Translations under genes and position numbers: made by a program | Shown here: positions 16,005-35,564 of the stretch, in pieces | Layout of the letters: each line of letters starts with the position of its first letter | Numbering within the stretch: position 1 is the stretch's first letter | Source of the DNA: Candidatus Margulisiibacteriota bacterium | Lineage (GTDB): Bacteria; Margulisbacteria; Riflemargulisbacteria; GWF2-39-127 | DNA length: 35,894 nt | Assembly: GCA_003242895.1 (NCBI GenBank) | Contig: QKMY01000066.1 | Location: forward strand, 1-35,894 | Direction: 5' to 3' | Notes under the pieces: generated by a model | What the model was told of the DNA's origin: nothing | Databases searched by the model: none | What the model saw: the letters and a program-made list of their open reading frames with translations, nothing else

Positions 16005-16853
16005 TTATTCAATCAAAAGAGTAAAATCAAAATTCTTCGCCGAATGAGTTATTGCGCCGACCGAAATTCTGTCGACTCCGGTCATAGCTATACCCCTCAC
16101 ATTCTCAATGTTAACATTTCCAGAGGCCTCAATTAAAATATTATAATTATTTTTTTTACACATTTCAACTGCTTTTATTATAGTATCTATGGACATATTA
16201 TCGAGCAACACCATATCAGGTTCGAGGGGCAAAGCTTCTTCAAGCTGTTGAATATCGGTTATCTCAATCTGAATAAATGCTGCACGCGCAGCAAATTGCT
16301 TGGCTTTTTCCAGAGCTTTTGACACACTTCCGGCAGCATTAATATGGTTCTCTTTAATGAGTATCGCATCCCAAAGGCCAATACGATGATTTGTTCCTCC
16401 GCCAATTGCTACAGCGTATTTATCTAGTTTCCGCCATCCCGGAATCGTCTTTCTTGTGTCACAGATACAAGCGATAGTCCCCTTAATCATGTCCACATAG
16501 GTTCTCGTTTCAGTCGCTATCCCAGATAACCTCGACAGAAAGTTAAGAACTGTACGCTCTGCCATTAAGATAGATCGGGTTTTCCCTTCGACAGTCATTA
16601 TAACTACGCCACTATCTACAATCTGACCATCGCAAATAGCAGTTATAACGCTTAATGTCGGGTCTATTTCGAAAAAAACGTGAAGAGCGATATCAACACC
16701 GCATATAACGCCAGCTTGTTTTGTTTTAATGATAGCTCTGCTAACACTATCGTCCGGAATAGTCGCCTGAGATGTAATATCTCCACTCTTAACATCCTCT
16801 AATAATGCCATAGCTACCAGACTTTGATAATCTCGTACTTCTATCTTCGACAT
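16005..16853 (-). CDS. nadC: nicotinate-nucleotide diphosphorylase (carboxylating)
   Basis: Quinolinate phosphoribosyltransferase, which makes nicotinate mononucleotide in de novo NAD synthesis. The open frame extends to 16910, but the ATG at 16853 (MSKIEVRDYQSL) gives the family length of about 282 residues. Conserved segments are LLEDVKSGDITSQA, RTVLNFLSRLSGIAT, CDTRKTIPGWRKLDKYAV, GGGTNHRIGLWDAILIKENH, ILIEASGNVN and DRISVGAITHS. The SD is weak (AAGGA about 13 bases upstream), so the start is only fairly certain. nadA and nadB are not in the window. It sits 69 bases after the NYN gene on the same strand. Confidence 0.93.
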   Translation of the reverse strand: MSKIEVRDYQSLVAMALLEDVKSGDITSQATIPDDSVSRAIIKTKQAGVICGVDIALHVFFEIDPTLSVITAICDGQIVDSGVVIMTVEGKTRSILMAERTVLNFLSRLSGIATETRTYVDMIKGTIACICDTRKTIPGWRKLDKYAVAIGGGTNHRIGLWDAILIKENHINAAGSVSKALEKAKQFAARAAFIQIEITDIQQLEEALPLEPDMVLLDNMSIDTIIKAVEMCKKNNYNILIEASGNVNIENVRGIAMTGVDRISVGAITHSAKNFDFTLLIE

Positions 16854-16921
16854 AACGATCTTCAATTCCTTTCTCAATCTTGCTATAACGTAGAAAACAA
16901 GCCTATGCAAGTGTAAAACAA

Positions 16922-17413
16922 CTAATCATAATAAAGCAAATCTTTATCGATCGGACAATAATAATTAGCAACTGAAATTAATTCGGAGGCTGTACTTTTA
17001 GGAAAAGAGGCTACCTCTACAATAGCGCCTCTCCCTTTTAACATCGTTGTTAAATCAACGAAATCCCCATCACCGCTCACAAGCACTATGACATCCAATC
17101 GGTCGGACATCGAAATAGTATCGATCGCAATACCCATATCCCAATCACCCTTGGAAGATCCATCAGGCCTGACCCTCAATTGCTTAATTTTTATTTCATA
17201 CCCATTTCGCTGGAGCATTTCCAGAAAATGGGATTGATCGATTTCCGGAGTTTGCACGATATAAGCAATTGCCCGAATCAGTTTACGCTTAGAATTTAGT
17301 TTATCAAGTAATTTTTCAAAATTAACCCTTGCTTTATACTGGTATTTTGCAGAGTAGAATAAATTCTGCACATCAACAAAAATACCTACTCTCTGATTTC
17401 TTTTATAATTCAT
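16922..17413 (-). CDS. NYN-domain (LabA/DUF88-like) putative RNase
   Basis: A 163-residue single-domain protein of the NYN branch of the PIN-like nuclease fold. Acidic and Asn residues at the expected places are GIFVDVQNLF, KGDWDMGIAID and VSGDGDFVDL. This pattern coordinates a metal ion in nucleases of this family, so RNA cleavage is the likely activity; the substrate is unknown. The C-terminal half contains AVxVASFPKS-like LabA features. GAGGT lies before the ATG. It is 50 bases downstream of the GspE-like gene. Confidence 0.85.
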   Translation of the reverse strand: MNYKRNQRVGIFVDVQNLFYSAKYQYKARVNFEKLLDKLNSKRKLIRAIAYIVQTPEIDQSHFLEMLQRNGYEIKIKQLRVRPDGSSKGDWDMGIAIDTISMSDRLDVIVLVSGDGDFVDLTTMLKGRGAIVEVASFPKSTASELISVANYYCPIDKDLLYYD

Positions 17414-17463: not shown

Positions 17464-18555
17464 TCACGATAACGCAAGCATATGGAACTCTTTTTCTGAA
17501 ATTATACCACCATTTAGTTTTAATGTTGCTTCTTCAATGAGTGTTACATAAAAATCTTCACGAGCAGCTTTTTTCAAGGCATTCGTTCCATATGGAGGCT
17601 TAATAACAAGCTCTTTTAATTGTTCATTCATAACCAGCAGCTCAAAAACACCTATTCTGCCTTTGACCCCTTTCAACATACAGGACTCACAGCCTTCTCC
17701 CATACAATCCATACAAACTTTTGGTAATAATGTCTGAGAAACTACGCCTACTAACGAATGGGCGATCATAAACGGTTCGACTCCCATGTCATAGAGCCTG
17801 GTTATAGCAGAAATGCTATCATTAGTGTGAATAGTTGCAACAACGAGATGTCCAGTCAATGCAGCACTGCACGCCAAAGCAGCGGTTTCAGCATCACGGA
17901 TTTCACCAATAAAAATTATATCAGGGTCCATTCTCAGAATATAACGCAAACACGAAGCAAAGGATAAATCAGAATCCTTATTAAACTGTATCTGGTTAAT
18001 TTCCTCCACTACATATTCAACCGGATCTTCTACTGTAATAATGTTTTTATGTTTGGCTTTTATATCAAGCAAGGAAGCATAGAGTGTCGTGGTTTTCCCG
18101 CTACCCGTAGATCCGGATATCAAGATTAGACCATGTCTGGAACGAAGCAACTCCGAATACTTCTGCAAAATCGTTTGATGCATTCCCAAAGAAGGTAATG
18201 ACCGGAGCAAATCGTTTCTATGCAGTATCCGCATGGTTGCTCGCTCGCCGAGTATTGTGGGAATAATAATAACGCGGATATCGACTATCGGAAATTTATT
18301 TAAACCAAAAGAAAATCTTCCTTCTTGAGGAATATACTTCTTTGTTATATCTGCTTTAATCAATACTTTTAAACGGGAAAAAATCTGAGGAGCAATATCT
18401 TTGGAAATAACCTTATAATCGATAAGCTGTCCATCCACTCTGAACTTTATAGCCAGCGTATCAGCTTTCGTTTCAATATGAACATCGCTCGCATTCTGCA
18501 CTAGCGCTGCTTCGAGACAGCTATTTAAGATGAAAACTACATCATTACTTTTCAC
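17464..18555 (-). CDS. GspE/PilB/PilT-type secretion or pilus ATPase
   Basis: An ATPase of the type II secretion/type IV pilus superfamily. The 363 residues contain Walker A GSTGSGKT (148-155), the Asp box ITVEDPVEY, Walker B DPDIIFIGEIRD (211-221), the His box TGHLVVATIHTND (234-246) and a zinc-binding four-Cys group at 281, 284, 289 and 292. The zinc motif favours GspE/PilB over PilT. It lacks the N-terminal domain that docks GspE to GspL, so it is a short form. No pilin, GspF or secretin gene is nearby. The start is GTG with AGGA close upstream. It lies 10 bases after the anti-sigma kinase gene, suggesting shared control. Confidence 0.9.
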   Translation of the reverse strand: MKSNDVVFILNSCLEAALVQNASDVHIETKADTLAIKFRVDGQLIDYKVISKDIAPQIFSRLKVLIKADITKKYIPQEGRFSFGLNKFPIVDIRVIIIPTILGERATMRILHRNDLLRSLPSLGMHQTILQKYSELLRSRHGLILISGSTGSGKTTTLYASLLDIKAKHKNIITVEDPVEYVVEEINQIQFNKDSDLSFASCLRYILRMDPDIIFIGEIRDAETAALACSAALTGHLVVATIHTNDSISAITRLYDMGVEPFMIAHSLVGVVSQTLLPKVCMDCMGEGCESCMLKGVKGRIGVFELLVMNEQLKELVIKPPYGTNALKKAAREDFYVTLIEEATLKLNGGIISEKEFHMLALS

Positions 18556-18565
18556 TGCATCCTAG

Positions 18566-19024
18566 CTAGTTAATAGAATTGGCTTCTATTGCATCTGTTG
18601 AGTAAACATACTTGACAAGTTTAACGATTGTTCCTCGTCCTATCTCCGAGTCATACTCTACTTCATCCATGAGGCTTTTCATAAAAGTAATCCCTAACCC
18701 TAGCCCGACTTTCTCCGGCAAATCAGGATTATTTTCACTACCTGAAGCAGGCCTATTAATATCAAAACCTCTTCCATTATCTTTTACAATCACTTCAAGC
18801 TGATCTTTCTTTACAACAAAAACAATTTCTATCTCCCCCAGCTTGCCTGGATATGCATACTGAACTGCATTAGTACAAGCCTCAGAAACTGCAATTTTTA
18901 TATCTTCTATTTCTTCATGATTGAATTTCAGCCTATTTGCAATTCCGGAAGCAGCTAATCTCACGACTCCAACGTATTCAGATAGGCTAGGTATCTTAAT
19001 CTCAACTTTTTGATTTTCATGCAT
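18566..19024 (-). CDS. RsbW/SpoIIAB-type anti-sigma factor serine kinase
   Basis: A GHKL ATPase that binds and silences a sigma factor and phosphorylates its STAS antagonist. The 152 residues include the N box SEACTNAVQYAY (48-58), G1 DNGRGFD (82-88) and GLGLGI (107-112). There is a C-terminal tail after KLVKYV. GGAGGG precedes the ATG. The partner STAS gene is 13 bases upstream, the usual SpoIIAA-SpoIIAB or RsbV-RsbW order. The likely target is the SigB/SigF-like factor at 20744-21490, although another output cannot be excluded. Confidence 0.9.
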   Translation of the reverse strand: MHENQKVEIKIPSLSEYVGVVRLAASGIANRLKFNHEEIEDIKIAVSEACTNAVQYAYPGKLGEIEIVFVVKKDQLEVIVKDNGRGFDINRPASGSENNPDLPEKVGLGLGITFMKSLMDEVEYDSEIGRGTIVKLVKYVYSTDAIEANSIN

Positions 19025-19037
19025 TTACTTTGCCCTC

Positions 19038-19403
19038 CTACGAATTGCTATCTTTTTTTATTTCTAATATAGCCACTTTTTCATCATCAAACATCCTGAA
19101 GTTCGCTTGAGTGAGCCCTGACACTTCAAAGATTTTTTTTATTTGTGGCTTTGTACAAATAATATTAATAAATCCATTATTTTTTGCCAATTTGTTCGCA
19201 CCGCTGGCAAGAACACCTAGTCCGGTACTATCTATATACTTGACGCCCTCCAGATTAATTATCATATCTTTTTCGCCGGTTTCAATAATATCCGAAATAG
19301 CCGTCTTTAGCTGAGGATAAGTATAAACATCTACTTCTCCCGCAAGTGTTATTACTGGAACATTCTGCTCTCGTTTCACGTCGATTTTCAGATCAAGGAC
19401 CAT
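19038..19403 (-). CDS. STAS-domain anti-sigma factor antagonist (RsbV/SpoIIAA-like)
   Basis: A single STAS domain of 121 residues. The conserved phosphorylatable Ser59 lies in YIDSTGLGVL, right after the INLEGV strand. Unphosphorylated, it should bind the RsbW-like kinase and free the sigma factor. The PP2C phosphatase encoded divergently at 19651 would dephosphorylate it. The C-terminus ends in a short Lys-rich tail. GGAGG lies about ten bases before the ATG. First gene of the long minus-strand run from the promoter at 19462-19490. Confidence 0.92.
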   Translation of the reverse strand: MVLDLKIDVKREQNVPVITLAGEVDVYTYPQLKTAISDIIETGEKDMIINLEGVKYIDSTGLGVLASGANKLAKNNGFINIICTKPQIKKIFEVSGLTQANFRMFDDEKVAILEIKKDSNS

Positions 19404-19441
19404 AATGACCGTTCCTCCTTAAATAATTATGTACTAAAAAT

Positions 19442-19464
19442 AATTGAATTATAATGATTCAATT
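19442..19464. promoter_or_regulatory. 8-bp inverted repeat overlapping the -10 and start site
   Basis: AATTGAAT (19442-19449) and ATTCAATT (19457-19464) are perfect complements with a seven-base centre. The element covers the 3' half of the -10 and the predicted start of the STAS operon. That is the position of a classic repressor operator. In RNA it could also form a weak A/U hairpin. Confidence 0.45.
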
Positions 19465-19490
19465 ATAACCATACGCATTAAAAAAAGCAA
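19462..19490 (-). promoter_or_regulatory. strong promoter of the STAS/anti-sigma/GspE run
   Basis: On the minus strand TTGCTT (19490-19485) and TATAAT (19467-19462) are 17 bases apart. This is a perfect -10 with correct spacing, so ordinary housekeeping sigma recognition is likely. The start near 19455 gives a leader of about 50 nt. A second TATAAT lies 13 bases downstream. Confidence 0.6.
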
Positions 19491-19572
19491 TAAAGACAAG
19501 AATATTATCTGACAAACCCATCTTATATTTATTTTCTCTAATATTAATTGACGCATAATATATTTTCACAAA

Positions 19573-19601
19573 TTGCAGATCGCATTTAGAAATGTTAAAA
19601 T
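19573..19601 (+). promoter_or_regulatory. putative promoter of the PP2C phosphatase gene
   Basis: TTGCAG (19573-19578) and TAAAAT (19596-19601) are spaced by 17 bases. The predicted start near 19608 leaves a leader of about 43 nt before the ATG at 19651. It diverges from the STAS operon promoter about 83 bases away. Confidence 0.5.
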
Positions 19602-19650
19602 TTCTATACATCGCACTTGTTAAACTATTCTTTATTCAGGTCACTGAGAA

Positions 19651-20709
19651 ATGAACCCGATAGAAATACTATTAGAAAAAACTATCCGCTCGAAAGCATT
19701 TATAACCGCAATTACAGGAACCTTCTTCCTTTCTGCATGTATAGCATATTATTATACTTTCTTTCAACTTCATTCCGCTTACCACTTGTTCGAGTATCTC
19801 CATTTTATTTTTTCAACCTTATTGATTCTTCTATTAACCTATTGGTTTCTTCAGAAAAAAAAGGCCTTCACTAAAGATGCGATAACAACCCAGAAGCTCA
19901 AACGGCAACAAGACAAAAATATGAGAGAACTTGAGATGGCACGATTAATCCAGCAAAGCCTTTTAGGTGATCATACGTACATTACTAAAGAGATCAAAAT
20001 CATCGCTCATTGCCGGCCGGCAGAAAAGATAGGGGGGGATTTTTATAGTTTCAATGAACATACCGTTTATAATACCCTTTCCAAAACAAATCACCAAAAA
20101 GGGATTATCAAGCTTCAAAACCAGGCAGACAGGCAACTGGGCATATGTATTGGCGATGTTGCAGGACACGGAATAGCATCCGCGCTTATCATGCTACTAG
20201 CAAAATCGCTGCTCGACCAACTCATGAACAAGTTCTCTTCCCCAGCAAAAATCTTCCATTTAGCGAACAGACAAATAAAAGTCCATACAGAAAAAAGCGA
20301 TATCAGCTTTGTTACGGCTGCAATACTTCTCATAAATCTTGACAATAAAACGCTCAATTTCTCCAAAGCCGGACATACCGATTCAATTCTTTTGCGCCAA
20401 GACGGAACATTATCTTTGCTTACGGCTGAAGGAGTATTCCTTGGTATGTTCGACAATGTAGAATTCGAAGAAGTCCAAATTCAACTCCAGCCAAAAGACA
20501 AAATAATTCTCTATACCGATGGAATAATTGAAACAAGAAACTCTCAAGGAGAACTATTTGGGCTGAAAAGACTCACGAATTTACTAGAGGCAAACTACCA
20601 ATTATCACTTGAAAAGATAGTACCATTGATATATCAAGAACTATTCCTGTTCTCCCAAAAACAAGAAGTTTACGATGACAGCACGGTAGTATTGGTAGAG
20701 CTACTGTAA
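19651..20709 (+). CDS. membrane-anchored SpoIIE/RsbU-type PP2C phosphatase
   Basis: A serine phosphatase expected to dephosphorylate the STAS antagonist and so activate the sigma factor. The 352 residues have two N-terminal membrane segments (about 17-38 and 45-67) with almost no loop. A short linker containing MARLIQQSLL, the usual entry to the RsbU PP2C domain, follows. Metal-binding Asp residues are in GGDFYS (Asp130), GDVAGHG (Asp169) and DDSTVV (Asp342/343); YTDGIIE is also present. There is no PAS, GAF or HAMP domain, so the signal must come through the membrane hairpin or the linker. Transcribed divergently from the STAS gene. The SD is weak. Confidence 0.9.
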   Translation: MNPIEILLEKTIRSKAFITAITGTFFLSACIAYYYTFFQLHSAYHLFEYLHFIFSTLLILLLTYWFLQKKKAFTKDAITTQKLKRQQDKNMRELEMARLIQQSLLGDHTYITKEIKIIAHCRPAEKIGGDFYSFNEHTVYNTLSKTNHQKGIIKLQNQADRQLGICIGDVAGHGIASALIMLLAKSLLDQLMNKFSSPAKIFHLANRQIKVHTEKSDISFVTAAILLINLDNKTLNFSKAGHTDSILLRQDGTLSLLTAEGVFLGMFDNVEFEEVQIQLQPKDKIILYTDGIIETRNSQGELFGLKRLTNLLEANYQLSLEKIVPLIYQELFLFSQKQEVYDDSTVVLVELL

Positions 20710-20743
20710 CTCAAGAATCCAGACAATATGATGGTTGGCGTGT

Positions 20744-21490
20744 TTATTTCGCCATCGTTTTCTTTAACTTCTCAAGGGCATGATTAAGTAATCTTGAAAC
20801 GTGCATCTGAGAAAGGTTCAACAACTGAGCAATCTCGTTCTGGGAAAGATTATCATAAAACCTCAGATAGATTATACGCTGTTCTCTTCTATTAAGGTTT
20901 GTGGCAATTGCATCACGAAGGGTTTCTTTATTGATAACAACGTCTTCTTCATCAACCTTTTTAACGTTATCTATGAGGGCTGCTTTTGAAGATGTACTAG
21001 GATCGCCGGTACGCTCGGTGACATACGATGGGGCGTCAAGAGAAACTGTCATGTAAGCCTGTCCGGCTTCAAGGGATTCTAAAACTTCCTCTTCCGAAAC
21101 ACCAACAATTTGGCATATCTCGGCTATTGTCGGTGACCGGCCATCTTCTTTATTAACATCGAAAATTACTTTTTTCACTTTGGCATTTAACTCATGAAGT
21201 CTTCGAGGAATCTTAATAAGATGACTCTTATCACGAAAAAAATGCTTTATCTCTCCAACAATGGTAGGCGTCGCATAAGTAGCAAATTCTATATCCTGAT
21301 TGGGGTCATACCGATCAATGGCCTTCATCAATCCTATCGTCCCAACCTGAATTATATCTTCCAGAGGCTCTCCTCTGTTGAGAAATTTACGGGCAATATA
21401 TTTGACCAGGTTTAGATTTTCGGAAACAATCCTGTCTCGAAGCTCTTTTTGTCTGGTACTATAATATTCGCAAAATAGTTCCCTACCCAA
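20744..21490 (-). CDS. SigB/SigF-type alternative sigma factor
   Basis: An RNA polymerase sigma factor of 248 residues, lacking region 1.1. Region 2 contains NLVKYIARKF, EDIIQVGTIGLMKAIDRYDP and FATYATPTIVGEIKHFFRD, the hallmark of the SigB/SigF/SigG group controlled by anti-sigma kinases. Region 3 is SPTIAEICQIVGVSEEEV. The region 4 helix-turn-helix is NEIAQLLNLSQMHVSRLLNHA. The start appears to be TTG at 21490 with GGTGG eight bases upstream; no ATG fits. It is 34 bases from the convergent phosphatase gene and is the natural output of the partner-switching proteins encoded at 18566-20709. Its regulon is unknown. Confidence 0.93.
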   Translation of the reverse strand: MGRELFCEYYSTRQKELRDRIVSENLNLVKYIARKFLNRGEPLEDIIQVGTIGLMKAIDRYDPNQDIEFATYATPTIVGEIKHFFRDKSHLIKIPRRLHELNAKVKKVIFDVNKEDGRSPTIAEICQIVGVSEEEVLESLEAGQAYMTVSLDAPSYVTERTGDPSTSSKAALIDNVKKVDEEDVVINKETLRDAIATNLNRREQRIIYLRFYDNLSQNEIAQLLNLSQMHVSRLLNHALEKLKKTMAK

Positions 21491-33553: not shown

Positions 33554-34855
33554 ATGAACCAAACAAACAAAACTATAATTAACGCTAAATTTGTAATGCC
33601 TATTTTTACCTCTGGGATACTTATTATCTCGACAATAATTCCTTTTATTTCAGCAAAAACTATCATTATTCCGGTTTCACTTAAACTGTTTATCATTATA
33701 ACTTCAATAGTGTTTGCAACACTACCTTCACTCCTTAAATATAAAAAAAACCATGAAAACTATAGTCTTCTCCTCAAAAATCTTTCAGTCGCTTTTCTCA
33801 CTTCAGTATGCATCCTCCTAACCGGAGGGATAAATAGTCCTAGCTATTTTCTGCTACTCATATTGGCACTTTTCTGCAATACCGGGCTTTCCTACCGGCA
33901 TAAAATATTTTATACAAGTGGAAGCGCACTTTTTTTTATACTCTCTGCAGTGGTTTCGCAGGTTTCCTATAGTAATTATAATCTTGGTGCTTATAACGTA
34001 TTGATGCTTACACTCCAGGTGTTCATGCTTTTTATCGTCGCACTTGCTCCCGCCCTCCCCATCGGTAAGCCAGAAGCCGATCCTGTAGAACTGAAACCCA
34101 TTAAAGAAGAACATCCTCTACCGGATAAGATTCAGTCATTAGGTATCTTAGTCGGCGGGATATCGCACGAGCTAAAGACCCCGCTTACCAGTATTATGGG
34201 ATTCGCGGAACTCTCTCTTCAAAAAATCATAAAAAATGCAGCTGATATCGGCGAGATAAAAGAATATCTAAAAATCATTATTCAATCTTCAGATCACTGT
34301 CTTATCATAATTCAGGACTTACTTGATTTTGCCAGACCCGCAAAAACTGACAGAAAAGTCTTCCGTATGATAAATATTAATAATTGCATAGATAGCACAG
34401 TTAAAATTATAATACATCACATGAAAATAAAAAATATTACCATTATAAAAGAGTACGATGAAAACCTGTCCCTCGCCAAAGGCAATTATAATCAGATCAG
34501 ACAGGTACTTCTAAATTTGTTGATAAACGCCCGCGATGCGATCTATAAAAACGGCACCATAAAAATAAAAACCTTCCAGCAAGCTGATACTGTTTTCATT
34601 TCGATAGAAGACAATGGCTGCGGCTTAGATGATGAAACACTAAAACATATTTTCGAACCTTTTTTTACAACCAAAGAAAGAGGAAAAGGAACCGGACTCG
34701 GGCTACCGGTCTCGTTGGAACTGATAAAAGAGCATAATGGGAATATAATTATTGAGAGTGAACCGGAAAAGGGTACACGCGCGACAGTTTCCCTTCCGAA
34801 ATACACTGAAGCACCAACCGGAAAAGAAGCTCATGCAATTTTTAAAAATAGCTAA
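33554..34855 (+). CDS. membrane sensor histidine kinase
   Basis: A 433-residue kinase. The N-terminal 170 residues are mostly hydrophobic and hold about five or six membrane segments with very short loops, so the sensor is in the membrane itself. The HisKA domain has GGISHELKTPLTSIMGFAEL (H box). The HATPase_c domain has the N box NLLINARDAI, G1 DNGCGLDD, F box IFEPFFTTK and G2 GTGLGLPVSLELIKEHNGN. All catalytic motifs are intact. No response regulator is encoded next to it, so its partner lies elsewhere. Its 3' end overlaps the start of plsC by 23 bases, hinting at a membrane-lipid link; this is inference. Confidence 0.92.
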   Translation: MNQTNKTIINAKFVMPIFTSGILIISTIIPFISAKTIIIPVSLKLFIIITSIVFATLPSLLKYKKNHENYSLLLKNLSVAFLTSVCILLTGGINSPSYFLLLILALFCNTGLSYRHKIFYTSGSALFFILSAVVSQVSYSNYNLGAYNVLMLTLQVFMLFIVALAPALPIGKPEADPVELKPIKEEHPLPDKIQSLGILVGGISHELKTPLTSIMGFAELSLQKIIKNAADIGEIKEYLKIIIQSSDHCLIIIQDLLDFARPAKTDRKVFRMININNCIDSTVKIIIHHMKIKNITIIKEYDENLSLAKGNYNQIRQVLLNLLINARDAIYKNGTIKIKTFQQADTVFISIEDNGCGLDDETLKHIFEPFFTTKERGKGTGLGLPVSLELIKEHNGNIIIESEPEKGTRATVSLPKYTEAPTGKEAHAIFKNS

Positions 34856-35564
34856 TTATATCCGAAGCATTATTTTTTTACCTGCCACAGTAACCTTATT
34901 CATTCTTTATTCTCTCGGGGCACCTTTTCTAACTATTTCCACAAAAAACATAAAACAAGCTTACATCAGGGTTGCAAGAGTTTGGGCGCAGCACTTGCTT
35001 CGGCTAGCAGGGATTACCGTAACAGCAGAAGGATTAGAGAACGTCCCCATGGATCAAACCTGCATCTTCGTTTCAAACCACCAAAGTATGATCGATATTT
35101 TCATATGTTTCGGTTATATACCGAAGTATATTGGTTTTTTTGCAAAAAAATCGTTATTTAGTATACCTTATTACGGATGGATATTAAAAATAAGCGGCAG
35201 CATCCCTATCGACAGATCAGATGCCAAAAAAGATTTTTCTACACTAGAATCAGCAGCTCAAAAAATCAAGCAAGGCCAAGACCTTATTATATACCCGGAA
35301 GGGACCAGGTCAGGAAAACCACAACTGAACAGCTTCAAGCGAGGCTGCGTTGTCTTGGCAAGCAAATCTCAGGCAGTTATTATTCCTACGGCAATAAAAG
35401 ACAGCTATAAAGCAGTTAGAAAAGGAAGTATCCAGGTATATCCGGCACACCTGTCTATTTCCTTTGGAAAACCAGTCAAGGTTCCGGAGAATAGCACCAG
35501 AAAACAGCATATGGTTATTGTAAAAAAACTTGAGAACGAAATATCTGACATGCTCCGCAGGTAA
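34833..35564 (+). CDS. plsC: 1-acyl-sn-glycerol-3-phosphate acyltransferase
   Basis: Adds the second acyl chain to lysophosphatidate to make phosphatidate in membrane lipid synthesis. The frame is open from 34752, but I choose the ATG at 34833. It gives MQFLKIANYIRSIIF and the family length of about 243 residues, and avoids a long overlap with the kinase. One N-terminal membrane segment is seen. Motif I is SNHQSMID (H-x4-D catalytic pair), followed by PKYIGFFAKKSLF, GSIPIDRS and motif III YPEGTRS. It overlaps the histidine kinase gene by 23 bases. The SD-like GAAAAGAAG is weak. Confidence 0.93.
   Translation: MQFLKIANYIRSIIFLPATVTLFILYSLGAPFLTISTKNIKQAYIRVARVWAQHLLRLAGITVTAEGLENVPMDQTCIFVSNHQSMIDIFICFGYIPKYIGFFAKKSLFSIPYYGWILKISGSIPIDRSDAKKDFSTLESAAQKIKQGQDLIIYPEGTRSGKPQLNSFKRGCVVLASKSQAVIIPTAIKDSYKAVRKGSIQVYPAHLSISFGKPVKVPENSTRKQHMVIVKKLENEISDMLRR

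Follow-up and report, generated by a model that had tools for sequence, protein, structure and literature searches.

The window, the whole stretch of DNA analysed here (35,894 nucleotides), is one entire contig (C66) of the 3.35 Mb genome of a Candidatus Margulisiibacteriota bacterium (G000; 100% complete, 0.24% contaminated). On its minus strand a STAS gene is followed after 13 bases by the gene for an RsbW-type kinase, after a further 10 bases by that for a GspE/PilB-type ATPase, then after 50 bases by an NYN gene and after 11 bases by nadC. The gene for a membrane PP2C phosphatase is divergent from the STAS gene and convergent with a sigma factor gene, which in turn is divergent from murE-murF. 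A first-pass annotation had named the five genes from ATPase to sigma factor, and domain and motif matches find all five intact where it had placed them. The 10-base spacing between rsbW and gspE is also as it described, as is the phosphatase gene on the opposite strand (19651–20709, plus strand) between the two minus-strand parts. Elsewhere in the window a histidine kinase frame (33554–34855) overlaps an acyltransferase frame that starts at 34752 (the pair spanning 33554–35564).

The partner-switching circuit

The STAS protein (19038–19403, minus strand) is an anti-sigma-factor antagonist of RsbV/SpoIIAA type (PF01740, 2.5e-19; TIGR00377 over its cut-off), with SpoIIAA and RsbV as its closest solved relatives. 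Its motif YIDSTGLG aligns with DSSGLG of SpoIIAA and conforms to the pattern D-S-[ST]-G-L-G, with Ser59 as the predicted phosphoserine. The kinase, an RsbW-type serine kinase and anti-sigma factor (18566–19024, minus strand; PF13581, 3.6e-26), possesses the N-box and glycine boxes of GHKL kinases of the RsbW/SpoIIAB type and has RsbW (6m36, 8.5e-30) as its top solved relative. It narrowly misses the NCBIfam RsbW equivalog (PRK04069 RsbW, 140.0 bits against a cut-off of 145). The phosphatase (19651–20709, plus strand) is a membrane-anchored protein of SpoIIE/RsbU type, whose N-terminal part, apparently two membrane helices, precedes the SpoIIE domain (PF07228, 2.3e-47, residues 160–350). The metal-binding aspartate motifs of a PP2C phosphatase are present (GGDFY, GDVAGHG, TDG and DDST), and the solved relatives of the domain are SpoIIE and related serine phosphatases. 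The sigma factor (20744–21490, minus strand) belongs to the SigB/SigF/SigG family, with 258.8 bits against TIGR02980 (curated cut-off 234.35); its top solved relatives are 1l0o_C, the sigma factor of the SpoIIAB complex, and 8x6g_H. Its assignment as the cognate sigma factor combines the TIGR02980 score with co-occurrence with RsbW in the phylum. The claim of a complete partner-switching sigma circuit thus holds for all four components. As judged from these matches it is a conventional RsbU/RsbV/RsbW-type switch, a system of known kind, and the kinase would be expected to bind this sigma factor.

Across the phylum (74 genomes) a strong RsbW ortholog is found in about 29, in most cases paired with a STAS gene. 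RsbW and the sigma factor are both present in 26 genomes, both absent from 34 and found singly in 14 (Fisher 4e-8, a value that is not corrected for phylogeny and follows a few deep branches). The sigma factor gene is divergent from murE at nearly all loci examined. Among the seven other genomes of the same class (class-mates), the PP2C gene adjoins the sigma factor gene in six; in the seventh, G006, a contig ends within the sigma factor gene. Five class-mates keep the STAS-rsbW pair, four with rpsB-tsf nearby, and two have no clear RsbW ortholog. Six class-mates encode a second, divergent RsbW-like protein of about 140–160 residues near a match to a FliI-type ATPase (L151, L152, L154–L157).

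The PP2C gene also adjoins the sigma factor gene in G032, a genome of another family, where contigs C111 and C97 share a 178-bp overlap (98%) that lies within the PP2C gene. When joined, they give the order cca / rsbW-STAS / PP2C / sigma / murE, which is that of the window without its ROK-nadC-NYN-gspE block.

Transcription of the STAS-rsbW-gspE genes

A candidate housekeeping promoter for the STAS-rsbW-gspE operon, TTGCTT-17-TATAAT, can be read from the sequence at 19462–19490 (minus strand). Its -10 box is perfect, with TATAAT 64 bases ahead of the STAS start, and its -35 box is weak, too weak for the program scan for promoters, which missed it. A perfect 8-base inverted repeat read from the same region, AATTGAAT-7-ATTCAATT (19442–19464), overlaps the candidate -10 box. 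It is a possible operator, in an AT-rich region where chance origin may apply. Co-transcription of gspE with rsbW, as suggested by the first-pass annotation, is predicted, and this prediction is the part of that suggestion which stands; the STAS gene would be expected to share the transcript. No terminator-like site was found between gspE and the NYN gene, and the NYN-domain protein (16922–17413, minus strand; PF01936, 1.9e-33) and nadC (16005–16910, minus strand; TIGR00078, 307 bits) are possible further and last members of the operon.

The further suggestion that envelope machinery is switched with a stress response is left unproven by this analysis, since a search for SigB-type promoters (GTTT-GGGNA) before the STAS, gspE, NYN, PP2C, sigma factor and murE genes, and before the genome's own gspF, tatD, metG and pilin genes, found none.

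The short extension ATPase

The ATPase (17464–18555, minus strand) is a protein of 363 residues that matches PF00437 at 1.3e-104 over model positions 9–367 of 370. It has complete N2 and C-terminal ATPase domains and keeps the Walker A and B, Asp and His boxes. No MshEN/N1 docking domain was found by domain search, in agreement with its description as a short GspE-like ATPase devoid of that domain. The open frame extends over no more than 365 codons, so the N-terminus of the protein is not simply mis-called. The scores fall short of the equivalogs for a full type II secretion GspE (TIGR02533, 389 of 630 bits) and a type IVa pilus PilB (TIGR02538, 338 of 676 bits), and 235.1 bits against ComGA (NF041000) compare with a curated cut-off of 300. 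Fold comparison of its AlphaFold2 model places it closest to the PilB, PilF and EpsE cores, with TM values of up to 0.9. Recent acquisition as foreign DNA was considered and rejected, as GC (38.7%) and GC3 (34%) are similar to those of neighbouring genes.

In a tree of the family the window protein forms a long branch (1.1–1.2, where the median end branch measures 0.25), as a decaying copy would. That gspE is a relic devoid of function is nevertheless highly improbable: the frame is open, the catalytic motifs and (as read from the sequence) the zinc cysteines are kept, 49 of 53 near-invariant residues are retained, the AlphaFold2 model has a pLDDT of 92, and an AGGA ribosome-binding-like site precedes the GTG start. 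No other short lone GspE was found in this genome.

The description of the ATPase as an orphan is correct for its surroundings, where no pilus genes were seen, and fails for the genome as a whole, which has further motors, a lone GspF and a lone GspG-like pilin. Elsewhere it encodes a PilT-like protein and four more motors, three of them full-length PilB-type proteins and the fourth of another type. The three full PilB motors could use or replace the window GspE.

Matches to the T2SSE family occur in 73 of the 74 genomes, and most of them have a lone gene of short or intermediate length, apart from full pilB; the idea that gspE is unique to the window locus was rejected on this count. The lone gene usually adjoins aroE or sua5. 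All seven class-mates have the aroE-gspE pair, as do many of the examined genomes from families without RsbW and this sigma factor; sua5 is the neighbour in many other genomes. An acyltransferase like that at 34752 in the window is often near the aroE-gspE locus in relatives. Because the lone GspE persists in families with neither RsbW nor this sigma factor, its basic job does not depend on the switch. In the tree the window GspE groups with the aroE-linked short family (support 91), but a clade with the family linked to sua5 and rsbW is not rejected (p-AU 0.606), so the link to rsbW may have arisen either once or twice. No gspE was found beside aroE in G000, which is consistent with a move of the gene into the rsbW operon.

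Such a move need carry no regulatory meaning. The gene may simply have landed behind rsbW by a rearrangement with, or near, NYN-nadC, there to share a housekeeping transcript. The switch locus of G032, which has no gspE, and the aroE-gspE pair kept by the class-mates fit this account, as do the housekeeping type of the candidate promoter and the outcome of the search for SigB-type sites. Lone gspE genes that adjoin aroE or sua5 elsewhere also look as if they move among housekeeping operons. We regard a neutral neighbour as a serious possibility, and as one that falls short of being probable given the recurrence described below.

Switch genes beside filament motors

The first-pass annotation had itself named the absence of the kinase-gspE pair from relatives as the observation that would count against it. 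Within the class this is what was found: gspE is not beside the kinase gene in any of the seven class-mates. Outside the class the pairing is seen again, in five genomes from four further families (two of f7, and one each of f12, f16 and f18), where rsbW is followed by the gene for a small membrane zinc-ribbon protein and then by that for a GspE of 427–515 residues. At three of these loci sua5 is next, and the f16 locus has an extra gene ahead of gspE. No STAS gene was detected in either f7 genome. In many genomes a membrane protein of ~90–105 residues with a C-terminal zinc ribbon is encoded directly after rsbW (L140:1878-2165, L079:7460-7771, L074:5276-5566 and L131:7083-7346); class-mates have a two-helix protein of 61–63 residues in its place.

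Twelve genomes of seven families, G000 included, also have a kinase-domain gene a short way upstream of pilB, in the same orientation. A second locus of G000 (L207:6146-11285 on contig C59) encodes in a row a GAF-GAF-PP2C-HATPase fusion of 968 residues, a STAS protein, a full PilB with MshEN, and PilC. In G007, kinase, STAS, PilB and PilC genes follow one another at the start of a contig, and STAS is present at both of these examined loci. In the ten further genomes the kinase-domain match upstream of pilB was judged by coordinates. Partner-switching genes therefore repeatedly adjoin filament motors in this phylum. The PilB-STAS neighbourhood at L207 and the recurrence of rsbW-gspE in a second group of genomes both argue against a neutral placement of gspE.

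The recurrent gene order makes regulation of the motor by the switch plausible, whether through co-expression or through binding. The stronger form of this would have the partner-switching proteins act directly on the motor, with RsbW or the unphosphorylated STAS protein binding or phosphorylating GspE or the platform, so that the switch would have two outputs, sigma factor and motor. Direct control of filament extension by STAS or RsbW would explain three arrangements that join switch genes to GspE/PilB motors, namely (i) that of the window, (ii) the RsbW-zinc-ribbon-GspE order and (iii) PP2C or kinase genes beside full pilB, accompanied by STAS at the two loci examined. STAS proteins with outputs other than sigma factors are known, HmpV and BtrV among them (PMC8256260). 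The evidence for direct action is, however, that of adjacency; switch and motor are apart in all class-mates, and the lone GspE persists in genomes that lack RsbW. We consider direct action at this locus unlikely, and hold the same view of the general proposition that the partner-switching proteins of the phylum regulate type IV filament motors besides sigma factors. Literature searches that paired partner switching with PilB returned only a Nostoc sigma-factor paper, and none of the papers listed for RsbW and anti-anti-sigma factors mentioned PilB.

Dispersed filament genes

Behind metG-tatD, G000 encodes a lone GspF (L210, 353 residues); the same holds for class-mates G002, G004 and G006 and for genomes of other families. 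The gene for a GspG-like pilin adjoins metG-tatD-gspF in many genomes. In G000 this pilin gene stands alone on contig C45 (L275), and it is not adjacent to gspF in G000 or the class-mates. The metG-tatD-gspF cluster, often with the pilin gene, is conserved outside the usual pilus operons (L241–L249, L250–L252 and L210). G000 thus encodes an ATPase, a platform, a pilin and a prepilin peptidase, the components expected of a core-only type IV filament; the peptidase and other pilins may also serve the genome's full type IV pilus systems. A prepilin peptidase is found in 60 of the 74 genomes and ComEC in 68, a protein that is common in bacteria generally. Genomes such as G008, G013 and G028, with a single clear motor, still have weak matches to GspF, one pilin and ComEC. 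The distances of GspE and GspF are correlated, and most of this correlation is accounted for by the relatedness of the species (partial r 0.56, from non-independent pairs).

According to a review of type 4 filaments, the Com pilus has a membrane complex made up of platform and ATPase only, and the core of such filaments comprises pilin, peptidase, ATPase and platform (PMC10191384; see also PMC10790768). On these grounds we propose a scattered filament of Com type here. From their co-occurrence and dispersal we infer that GspE, the lone GspF and the lone pilin work together as a Com-like filament, whose role would be DNA uptake through ComEC.

Model

Sequence directly supports gene content, domain integrity, synteny and presence across the phylum, and the model goes beyond these. 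We propose that the membrane PP2C, as the signal input, would dephosphorylate the STAS protein, which in that form would draw RsbW away from the sigma factor. In addition, the operon of STAS and rsbW would encode the extension ATPase for a separate machine unrelated to the switch, a minimal type IV filament scattered over the genome and composed of the lone GspE, the lone GspF behind tatD, the lone GspG-like pilin and the prepilin peptidase. This filament is most likely Com-like and would serve DNA uptake through ComEC. The gspE gene most likely moved to its present place from one of its usual sites in the phylum, and would now be expressed with the switch. On balance we favour this reading, a conventional switch with the extension ATPase gene of a Com-like filament relocated into, and expressed with, its STAS-rsbW operon.

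The circuit itself is familiar; an operon that joins it with a Com-like motor would be new. The locus points to a physical link, at the level of genes, between a SigB/F-type switch and a minimal pilus motor in a little-studied phylum. The lone GspE, the tatD-linked GspF and the lone GspG-like pilin offer a concrete, testable gene set for DNA uptake. If direct control of the motor were true, a module known mainly for sigma factors would gain another class of target.

Comparison with known systems

The RsbU/RsbV/RsbW-SigB switch of Bacillus subtilis, like SpoIIAA/AB-SigF, has the same four parts, the same conserved motifs and the same pairing of STAS and kinase genes. In contrast to the B. subtilis switch, the sigma factor gene lies here outside the STAS-rsbW operon, beyond the divergent phosphatase gene and beside murE; gspE follows rsbW, and a SigB-type autoregulatory promoter was not found at the locus.

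The proposed filament resembles the Com pilus of monoderms (ComGA ATPase, ComGB platform, ComGC pilin) in its short ATPase devoid of N1, its short platform and its one main pilin candidate, and in that no PilMNOP-like set was seen beside the motor, platform and pilin genes. It differs in that its genes are dispersed, beside aroE/sua5/rsbW, beside metG-tatD and elsewhere, in that the ComGA cut-off is not reached and in that no minor pilins were identified; DNA uptake is here a predicted role.

In cyanobacteria, hormogonium development and motility involve the HmpU/HmpV/HmpW partner switch and a SigF-type sigma factor, and pilA depends on sigF (PMC6495340, PMC8256260). The likeness lies in the partner-switching proteins and the SigF-type sigma factor. 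There the regulatory link was shown by genetics, whereas here it is the gene for the extension ATPase that adjoins the switch.
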